Origin: an uncultured Flavobacteriales bacterium
GTDB lineage: Bacteria > Bacteroidota > Bacteroidia > Flavobacteriales_D > Parvicellaceae
Assembly (NCBI GenBank): GCA_943788755.1
Contig: CALSRM010000003.1
Span: 248,001 to 312,000 of the forward strand
DNA length: 64,000 bases
Direction of reading: 5' to 3'
Part shown: in pieces, positions 21,139-24,740 of the stretch
How positions within the stretch are numbered: the first letter of the stretch is position 1
Layout of the letters: the number at the start of each line of letters is the position of its first letter
The notes under the pieces: model-generated
Databases searched by the model: none
What the model was told of the DNA's origin: nothing
What the model saw: the letters and a program-made list of their open reading frames with translations, nothing else
Program-made: the position numbers and the translations under genes

Positions 21139-21588
21139 GTGAAGCTACAAGAAACATTATCAGACAATACAAAAAAGCAAGAACGCTTTGATAAAGCGTA
21201 TTTGCGTATGGCATCAGAATGGGCAAAATTATCGCATTGTGAACGTAAGCAGGTAGGAGCTATAATAGTTAAGGGGCGAATGATTATCTCGGATGGTTTT
21301 AACGGTACACCAACCGGTTTTGAAAATTGTTGTGAAGATGAAGCAGGAGAAACACAATGGTACGTTTTACACGCAGAAGCTAATGCCATTTTAAAAGTTG
21401 CGAATAGTACAAATAGCTGTGAGGGAGCTACACTATATTTAACCTTGTCTCCTTGCAAAGAATGTTCAAAACTAGTTCACCAAGCGGGAATAAAACGCTT
21501 AGTATACAATCAGGGCTACAAAGATAACTCAGGGCTACAATTTTTAGAAAAAGCAGGCGTTGAAGTTGTTCAAATTGAAACACTTTAA
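21139..21588 (+). CDS. dCMP deaminase-family protein
   Basis: 149 residues with the zinc-dependent deaminase motifs HAE (residues 78-80) and PCKEC (105-109, cysteines 106 and 109). The extended insert FNGTPTGFENCCEDEAGETQ between the first strand and HAE is typical of dCMP deaminase/ComEB. It probably makes dUMP for thymidylate synthesis. It starts with GTG at 21139; upstream is a TATTTTCG box only 5 nt away. The stop overlaps the next ATG by one base (TAATG), so it is translationally coupled to the S41 protease gene. Confidence 0.88.
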   Translation: MKLQETLSDNTKKQERFDKAYLRMASEWAKLSHCERKQVGAIIVKGRMIISDGFNGTPTGFENCCEDEAGETQWYVLHAEANAILKVANSTNSCEGATLYLTLSPCKECSKLVHQAGIKRLVYNQGYKDNSGLQFLEKAGVEVVQIETL

Positions 21589-23265
21589 TGGAAGAGGAAT
21601 ACAAAGAAATAAAAGTAAGTAGCTATATCTCGTCTACAAAAGGTCCGCTTGACAAGAATAATAAATCTAATAATTGGCTTCTTATTTTAACTCCTTTATT
21701 AATCGGAATTTGCTCTGCAGCAACCTACTTTATTGGAACTGGACAATTTCGTTCTCAAGAAAAAATAATACAAGAAGAGCAGGTTTTAAAATTAAATCAT
21801 GTACTAGATGTAATCGAGTCTCATTATGTAGACTCCGTAGATAGAAAAGAGTTAATTGAAACGTCTATTTCCGGCATGCTAGCAAAACTAGACCCACATT
21901 CCGCATATATATCATCAAAAGATGTAGAAAGGCAGAATGAAGAATTGCAAGGGCATTTTGGAGGCGTTGGAATTCGGTTTATTATTTTACGTGACACATT
22001 GATGATAACCAACATCATTCCCAATGGCCCTTCGGAGATAGCAGGTTTAAAAGCGGGTGATAGGATACTTGAAGTTGATGGAGTCAAAATAGCTGGAATC
22101 GGATTGAAAATTGAAGATGTTCAGGGTCTTTTGAAAGGAGAATTTGGAACAAAAGTTGAGTTAAAAATCTTAAACAAATCTACCTTGAACCCAAAGGATA
22201 TAGAAGTTACTAGAGGGTCAATTCCTTTGCCATCTATTGATGCTTCTTTTATGATAAACAGCACGATAGGATACATTAGACTTAAAAATTTCTCCAATAA
22301 CACTGACAGAGAGTTTGCTTATGCGGTTGCTGATTTAAAAGCAGAAGGCATGACTAAATTGGTTTTTGACTTAAGAAACAACGGAGGTGGTTACTTGCAC
22401 GGAGCGACAAGCGTTGCTGATGAATTTTTAGCTGCAGGAAAATCCATCGTTTATACAAAAGGTGCACATCAGCAGAAGAAAGAATATTTCTCTTCTAGGT
22501 ACGGAAACTTTGAAAGCAATGAACTGGTTATCCTTGTAAATAGCGGAACAGCTTCTGCAAGTGAAATTGTTAGTGGTGCTGTTCAAGACAATGATAGGGG
22601 TTTGATAATGGGGCGTAGGACTTTCGGAAAAGGATTGGTGCAACAACCAATAAATTTAGAAGATGGATCGGAAATGAGACTTACTGTTTCTCGTTATTAT
22701 ACTCCCACCGGAAGGTGTATTCAAAAACCTTACGGCAGCGGGATAGACTATTACAATGACATTATGAATCGCTATGAAAACGGCGAACTGCAAGAATTGG
22801 ATAGTGTGATATTTGAAAATGCAGAAAAATTTATCACTCCAGAAGGCAGAACCGTATATGGCGGCGGTGGAATTATGCCTGATTTATTTATCCCAATTGA
22901 CACTTCTGGATCTTCACTCTATCTTATCCTCATTAGCATACTCTGCAGCTTACCGAGATTATTGCTTTGATTATATTGACAAGAATAGAGAAAAATTAAA
23001 CTATAAAGATGTAAAATCATTTAATGCTCAGTATTCTATTACTGAACAAATGTTTAATGAATTTTGTTGAGAATGCATCCAAAAACCACGGGGTTAGCAA
23101 AGGATTTATTCGGAATAAATGCATCCAAAGAACCGAATTAAAAACCAACTCAAATCAGAATTAGCAACCTATTTATGGGATGAGGAAGCACGTTTTTTCA
23201 TTTCGATTCCATTTGATAATGACATTCAGATTGCTATTAAGGCGTTAAATAATAAAATAAATTAA
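21588..23265 (+). pseudogene. C-terminal processing (S41) peptidase, 3' part disrupted by frameshifts
   Basis: A CtpA/Prc-type periplasmic serine protease. The intact part has an N-terminal membrane anchor (about residues 28-50), a PDZ domain (about 115-190, GPSEIAGLKAGDRILEVDG) and the S41 catalytic domain with VNSGTASASEIVSGAVQD, where the nucleophile is the serine of SASE. The lysine of RRTFGKGLVQQP is also present. The frame ends at 22970, but family-like sequence (LSSLAYSAAYRDYCFDYIDK; later NEFVENASKNHGV; then RIKNQLKSELATYLWDEEAR) continues in shifted frames to TAA 23263-23265. Four single extra bases (near 22923, 23062-23065, 23099-23103, 23130) restore one frame of about 557 codons. 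The catalytic domain is intact, so function may survive if the shifts are real. Confidence 0.78.
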
Positions 23266-23793: not shown

Positions 23794-24740
23794 ATGAAAA
23801 AAGATAGACGTCAATTTCTAAAAAACACCTCCTTAGCAGCAATTGCTGCAGTAACTTTGCCGAGCGCAGTGAAAGCTGCATTCAATGATGAAAATTCCAG
23901 TCAACCCGCAGCAGATTGCAATCCAACGACACAAGACTATTATGGTCAAGGTCCTTTTTATTCGGCTAATGCACCCTCAATTGTAAATAATCAACTTGCT
24001 GCAGCAAGTGAGCCTGGAACACGGTTTATAATAAGTGGTAGGGTACATAACCTGGATTGCACAGAATATATCGCTGGAGCTATTATTGATATTTGGCAGG
24101 CAAACGATGCAGGCGCATACGATAACACAGGATTCAATCTGAGAGGCATAGCAACCAGTAATAGTCAAGGTTTTTATCTTTTTGAAACAATATATCCTGG
24201 AAAATATTTAAACGGAAGTGCGTATCGTCCGTCCCATATTCATCTTAAAATCACTCCTCCTGGTTTCCCGATTTTAACTACACAACTTTATTTCCAAGGT
24301 GATTCAGATATCCCGGCTGACGCCGCAGCCTCTATTTCAAGTGGCACATATGATGCAACCCACCGAATTTTACCGGTAACGACCAATAGCTTAGGACAAA
24401 AAGAAGCAACTTGGGACATCGTTATAGATGGTTCAGGTGATCCAGTTGGAATTGAAGAGATGCGTGCATCTATGGGGATGATTTACAAAATATATCCAAA
24501 CCCATTTTCAGATTTTATTCAAATAAATTATGGTGTTTTTCAGGACGCCAAAGTAAGCCTCCAAGTATTTGACATTCAGGGGTAGCTTAGTTGCGAATTT
24601 GCAAGAAATAACTCTTAAACCCGAGAAATACACAGCCGAATGGAGACCTGGATTCCAATATTCGTCCTGGCCATTATTTTATAGCCCTAAAAATAAATGA
24701 TGTCCAAGTTCATTACCTGAAAGTTATAAAAGAGCCATGA
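23794..24740 (+). pseudogene. Intradiol ring-cleavage dioxygenase-like protein with Tat signal and T9SS tail, frameshifted
   Basis: The first frame (23794-24585, 263 aa) starts MKKDRRQFLKNTSLAAIAAV, a twin-arginine signal. It continues with a protocatechuate 3,4-dioxygenase beta-like fold: GQGPFYSANAP, AGAIIDIWQANDAGAYDN and the iron-ligand motif YRPSHIHLKI (two histidines). It ends inside a type A T9SS sorting domain (YKIYPNPFSDFIQINY). The domain resumes after an extra G in 24579-24582 (GSLVANLQEITLKPEKYTAE). It shifts again after an extra C at 24647-24648 (LDSNIRPGHYFIALKINDVQ), ending TGA 24738-24740. The restored length is about 315 aa. Substrate unknown. Confidence 0.75.

Follow-up and report, generated by a model that had tools for sequence, protein, structure and literature searches.

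Cargo of the T9SS is described as entering the periplasm by way of Sec. In the available portions of a recent review, all T9SS effectors carry a Sec signal and enter the periplasm unfolded, folding being proposed to take place in that compartment (PMC10202324), and the accessible parts of two further sources likewise name Sec for T9SS substrates (PMC9127263, PMC9251779). Export in two steps that begins with Tat is on record for a different machine: the accessible text of PMC4899797 describes Tat-T2SS secretion of PlcH and PlcN of Pseudomonas aeruginosa. Secreted intradiol dioxygenases are also on record: those of spider mites act on catechols such as caffeic acid, but they are animal proteins of fungal origin with neither Tat nor T9SS, according to the available part of PMC9167512.

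The gene described here lies in a 64,000-nucleotide stretch of DNA (the window) from a marine-type Bacteroidota host. Its product carries, in this order, a Tat-type signal, an intradiol dioxygenase domain and a type A T9SS tail; the arrangement is conserved in relatives, and the genome encodes both export machineries. We read the protein, with a probability of roughly 0.7, as a putative mononuclear Fe(III) intradiol dioxygenase that would be exported folded by Tat and then by the T9SS, its tail having been added to a Tat substrate and kept in one clade. Like the type A T9SS cargo of Bacteroidota (TIGR04183/PF18962), it has a C-terminal sorting domain above the cut-offs; the cargo described in the available parts of PMC9127263 and PMC10202324 enters by Sec, whereas the window protein has a Tat-type signal. 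The proposed route resembles that of PlcH/PlcN in using Tat first and a second, outer-membrane machine afterwards, and differs in that the second step would be the T9SS instead of the T2SS (PMC4899797, as far as its text was accessible). A Tat signal on T9SS cargo is not described in the accessible portions of the literature searched, which lay mostly outside subscription journals and included PMC9251779, PMC4804311, PMC5445135, PMC9127263, PMC13404670, PMC5561996, PMC10202324, PMC4899797 and PMC9167512. The enzyme family is thus a known exported one and the tail is a known one, and it is their combination that is undescribed in that literature.

The gene occupies 23794-24740 of the plus strand, where the initial annotation had placed it, with its ATG at 23794 and its TGA at 24738-24740 (Table 1). 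A 263-codon open reading frame opens this interval and ends at the frame 1 stop at 24583-24585. It stops within the tail because two extra bases spread the tail across three frames.

Table 1. Features of the dioxygenase gene in the window.
Feature	Position	Strand	Basis
Tat-type signal peptide MKKDRRQFLKNTSLAAIAAVTLPSAVKA, residues 1-28	23794..23877	+	TIGR01409 match, RR conservation
Twin arginines R5-R6	23806-23811	+	part of MKKDRRQFLKNTSLAAIAAVTLPSAVKA
Intradiol dioxygenase domain PF00775, residues 52-212	23947..24429	+	87.0 bits
Type A T9SS tail, first part (residues 233-263), frame 1	24490..24582	+	partial TIGR04183/PF18962 matches
Frame break 1: extra base at 24583 in a G run relative to L036/L041, giving a TAG stop	24580..24585	+	
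Tail, middle part, second frame	24581..24643	+	resembles tails of relatives
Frame break 2: extra base at 24651 relative to L036/L041	24649..24651	+	
Tail, last part, third frame, stop TGA	24642..24740	+	near-identical to L036

Further one-base gains relative to the relatives L036 and L041 were found near the dioxygenase gene, at 22923, 23060, about 23095 and 23130. These gains split an S41 (CtpA-like) peptidase gene that starts at 21588, within 22923-23247, and its product measures 460 aa in the window versus 552-555 aa in L036 and L041. The two extra bases in the tail, together with those in the peptidase gene, would also be expected if the window copy were a (young) pseudogene whose tail has been destroyed, leaving an enzyme that is periplasmic or degraded. 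We consider this unlikely, as the breaks are confined to about 1.7 kb and each is a one-base gain of the kind produced by base-calling or polishing errors, the seven other genes compared (19.9-29.8 kb of the window) are unbroken, and the protein past the breaks remains near-identical to its relatives. A local cluster of sequencing errors would account for the breaks most simply. The pseudogene explanation in any case concerns the window copy alone and is compatible with our reading of the family.

On its own, frame 1 of the window falls below the cut-offs of both sorting-domain models (TIGR04183, 16.4 bits against 23; PF18962, 20.5 against 27), and the three tail pieces joined as protein exceed both (36.6 and 36.8 bits, respectively). 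The initial annotation had called the C-terminus a type A T9SS domain and proposed scoring it after repair; the joined frames and the intact relatives, which also exceed the cut-offs, bear this assignment out. The strongest proof that the tail is genuine comes from uninterrupted orthologues of 313-314 aa. Among these sequences, L036 is an unaltered protein 95% identical to the window ORF that scores 19.3 bits with the Tat model (cut-off 16.7) and 35.7 bits with the T9SS model (cut-off 23). PF18962 matched all 18 intact orthologues at E<=0.001, and at E<=0.05 TIGR04183 matched 17 and TIGR01409 matched 11. An AlphaFold model of L036, built from an 11-row alignment, reveals no more than a series of strands in the tail region, and its mean pLDDT of 50 makes it unfit for a fold search.

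Export by Tat could be real and the tail vestigial, or a mere extension of the fold, so that the enzyme stays in the periplasm. Sister groups without a tail do exist, and the tail is less conserved than the enzyme (56% versus 68% mean pairwise identity). Against this stand the retention of the tail by every member of the clade, its match to two curated models, invariant positions that extend to the C-terminal end in the 18 orthologues, and a genome that encodes SprA (2515 bits) and is rich in T9SS-tail proteins (136 matches). A vestigial tail therefore strikes us as very doubtful.

The claim of a Tat-type N-terminus stood with one signal model and with the relatives, and failed with a second model. 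TIGR01409 (TAT_signal_seq) gave 19.1 bits, above its cut-off of 16.7, the motif RRxFLK is present, and relatives share the RR pair; the shorter Pfam model PF10518 (TAT_signal) gave 10.1 bits, below its cut-off of 22.7. Across the 18 intact orthologues, seven of which missed E 0.05 with TIGR01409, the sole invariant signal residues are R5, R6, F8 and L9 (R-R-x-F-L). Mean identity reaches 86% in the seven-residue motif and drops to 41% in the remaining signal (h/c region) and 15% in the linker behind it. The residue preceding RR varies (Asp, Gly, Asn, Ser, Lys or Pro), with no constant Ser or Thr, and in the window a basic residue (K27) stands immediately before the likely cleavage site.

T9SS-tail proteins of the same genome served as a comparison. 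Their N-termini are mostly short MKK/MKR signals, and RR occurred within the first 14 residues in none of the 27 that were read, at least four of which have doubtful starts (L007, L011, L215 and L232); the comparison left out five T9SS ORFs without a clear signal and other loci (of 50) without a readable N-terminus. The best 12-residue Kyte-Doolittle mean had a median of 2.31 in this cargo (n=27) and 1.77 in the dioxygenase family (n=20; Mann-Whitney p = 1.6e-4), and the window value was 1.88. These results support a predicted Tat-type signal that is distinct from the Sec-like signals of the genome's own T9SS cargo.

Sec requires positive charge rather than two arginines. If it is Sec that actually recognises this N-terminus, the RR pair would be an inheritance without present relevance and the protein ordinary Sec-T9SS cargo. 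Such an explanation agrees with the Sec signal that the available text of PMC10202324 gives every T9SS effector, with the missed PF10518 cut-off, and with the window h-region, which falls inside the range of the own cargo (4/27 as mild or milder). It seems improbable nonetheless: RR is invariant in 18/18 diverged orthologues, in which lysine would suit Sec equally, RR is missing from the 27 mainly MKK/MKR cargo signals read, the TIGR01409 cut-off is reached, and the c-region has its basic residue.

The presence of tatC, on which the Tat proposal had been made to depend, was confirmed in the genome (203.8 bits), along with two TatA/B/E genes. The Tat signal model found four matches in this genome at E<=10, three of them above the cut-off. 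This list and that of the 136 T9SS-tail proteins intersect only at the window dioxygenase gene, and from their coincidence at one gene only we take the pairing to lie above chance.

That the protein is intradiol-dioxygenase-like, as the initial annotation held, is borne out by the PF00775 (Dioxygenase_C) score in Table 1, against a gathering threshold of 27.3, and by retained active-site residues. All 18 orthologues match the model, and Tyr109, Tyr138, His148, His150, Arg145 and Gln164 are present in 23/23 tailed rows. By homology, Tyr109, Tyr138, His148 and His150 would be the iron ligands; the roles of these residues are presumed to be those of catechol 1,2-dioxygenase. Two cysteines are near-invariant (22/23 tailed rows), and the same pair occurs in tail-less relatives with Tat signals. 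They probably form a disulfide, which, if the enzyme folds in the cytoplasm, would need to form after export.

The closest solved chains are those of an intradiol ring-cleavage dioxygenase, 4ilt_A (77.8 bits) and 4ilv_A (76.7 bits), which we take to be the secreted Streptomyces enzyme SACTE_2871. This enzyme resembles that of the window in being single-chain, in its ligand pattern and in its export, which for the window protein is predicted. It differs in being actinobacterial and in having a lignin-binding module in place of the T9SS tail, a module that is reportedly C-terminal, judging by the title of a study of a secreted Streptomyces intradiol dioxygenase. NCBIfam equivalog models for catechol 1,2-, chlorocatechol 1,2- and protocatechuate 3,4-dioxygenase were far from their cut-offs (best 68.7 against 359.25), so that no substrate can be assigned.

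An operon for aromatic catabolism was considered and rejected, since the neighbours are common only to L036 and L041 and no neighbour family recurs across the other nine loci. A search for PcaC gave no match at E<=0.001, and a short muconolactone-isomerase-like ORF of the same genome (L318) scored 23.2, below the family cut-off of 26.7. On these three grounds we favour a stand-alone surface enzyme that would open catechols, for detoxification or to yield small acids, over the first step of a pathway. Phage origin was likewise rejected; no PHROG match was found at E<=0.01.

When one genome per species was scanned, 14 loci were returned, of which 11 are close relatives. Signal, enzyme and tail lie in a single frame in ten of the 11, and the seven nearest, counted from their start methionine, are 313-314 aa long; in L041 a separate frame break falls right behind the twin arginines. 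Orthologues 79-83% identical to the window protein occur in three MAGs named Aureispira or Saprospiraceae (L038, L040 and L042), through either gene transfer or misbinning or misnaming of the MAGs. Two of these orthologues are adjoined by T9SS-tail proteins (L042:2704-3615, minus strand, 38.7 bits; L040:7120-7992, minus strand, 48.2 bits; both PF18962).

With the enzyme-domain model at E<=1e-10, matches were found in 37/399 genomes of the order and 22/395 of the phylum. The close clade (E<=1e-80) comprises 16 of the 399, and RR and tail occur together in all 16, four of them with caveats: the window's own genome and G427 are frame-broken, G401 is split over contigs and G445 has an inner stop. 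The survey of relatives proposed at the outset therefore did recover the same pairing. A home-made model found no tail at the remaining 22 places, which lie in 21 genomes of the order and two of which are cut on the tail side by a contig end; this model, built from 30 tails of the window's genome and used in the order sample, the tree and both Tat surveys described below, may miss weak or other-type tails. The motif at these places is RK in 18, RR in one and unclear in three. Several of the tail-less RK relatives (L093-L106, L207-L209, L213) have a lipobox-like cysteine, and such proteins may be lipoproteins on another export route.

A tree was built from 51 rows, omitting L092, six loci identical to others or repeating a region, and every row below 80 bits apart from L068. 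In it the tailed rows belonging to the order cluster together, and the tail label requires two changes overall. A single gain for all tailed rows is not required by the tree: L068, which combines RK with a tail, is set off by a very long branch, and the branch by which L051 enters the clade is also long. Since the tail of L051 also passes FlgD_ig rather than PF18962, it may be of separate origin. L068 itself, a 338-aa ORF on the minus strand, encodes a flavobacterial intradiol dioxygenase from another subfamily; it has a T9SS tail of its own (52.5 bits, home-made model) and is adjoined by a tail-less paralogue.

Outside the phylum, all four Pseudomonadota relatives read have an RR signal and no tail, and an Actinomycetota relative (L319) has RK. 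The Pseudomonadota proteins with Tat signals (for example WP_213234087.1 and WP_026173879.1) share the RR signal, the enzyme domain and the paired cysteines with the window protein, but they stop after the enzyme domain, without a T9SS tail, and are 32-40% identical among the matches listed. Because these distant tail-less relatives carry RR signals, the tail was probably joined onto an enzyme already exported by Tat. An alternative to an old Tat-exported enzyme is that RR was regained from RK inside the order; with RK rather than RR in 18/22 tail-less places, it is uncertain which motif is ancestral there.

The Tat model was also run on 60 genomes of the order, giving 132 matches in 59 of them. 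We read 96 of these, which together with L035 make 97 ORFs, 12 of them cut before the stop; the 34 matches left out have frames of 1038-1150 aa, and two more matches are dioxygenases from other loci (G432, G401). Within the 96 matches read, tails were found in the window gene and in L152, L157 and L172. L152 and L157 are DUF1501 proteins, with PF18962 scores of 30.5 (passing 27) and 19.0 (below it), and L172 is similar to both by eye. Across 41 genomes of the phylum there were 86 matches in 36, and the 79 screened, which excluded five longer than 1000 aa and two from the window's genome, added three pairings. These include L289, a DUF1501 protein (tail 42.7), and L300, a DUF362 protein (tail 29.0; Pfam cut-off 27 for both). 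Proteins of DUF1501 or DUF362 type that pair a Tat-type signal with a T9SS-like tail are, in all, L152, L157, L172, L289, L251 and L300. By these signal and tail assignments the pairing is rare, yet recurrent in at least three unrelated families. The two-step route had been called unusual, which is right as to rarity but not as to uniqueness, as DUF1501 and DUF362 proteins share the pairing. We lean, with rather less assurance than for the dioxygenase itself, towards Tat followed by T9SS being a standing route in Bacteroidota, in which cofactor enzymes would be loaded with metal in the cytoplasm and pass folded through Tat and SprA, tails having been gained separately by the dioxygenase clade and the DUF1501 and DUF362 proteins.

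Taken together, the domain order, its conservation and the two machineries lead us to infer the following route. The single-chain enzyme would fold in the cytoplasm and probably take up iron there, and the folded dioxygenase would cross the inner membrane via Tat, with removal of the signal peptide. Its type A C-terminal domain would then be recognised, and the T9SS would take the dioxygenase through its SprA pore, either to remain on the surface or to be set free. At either site it would open catechol-type rings; the extracellular aromatic chemistry foreseen in the initial annotation would follow from this last step. In evolutionary terms, the T9SS tail would have joined a pre-existing Tat substrate, and the combination would have been retained in one clade across families of the order.

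The pairing is kept by many related bacteria and is absent from the available parts of T9SS reviews. As one of these, a recent review, assigns all T9SS effectors to Sec in its accessible text (PMC10202324), the pairing constitutes a testable exception. If the proposed route is true, Tat-exported cargo would reach the T9SS already folded, and would thereby provide direct evidence that a folded C-terminal domain suffices for cargo to be recognised and to pass through SprA, with no step linked to Sec. Separate gains of tails on Tat enzymes would, in the same way, mean that the T9SS needs neither entry by Sec nor folding of its cargo in the periplasm. Bacteroidota would then have a natural means of placing metal enzymes on their surface, and the cleavage of catechol rings would be located outside the cell.
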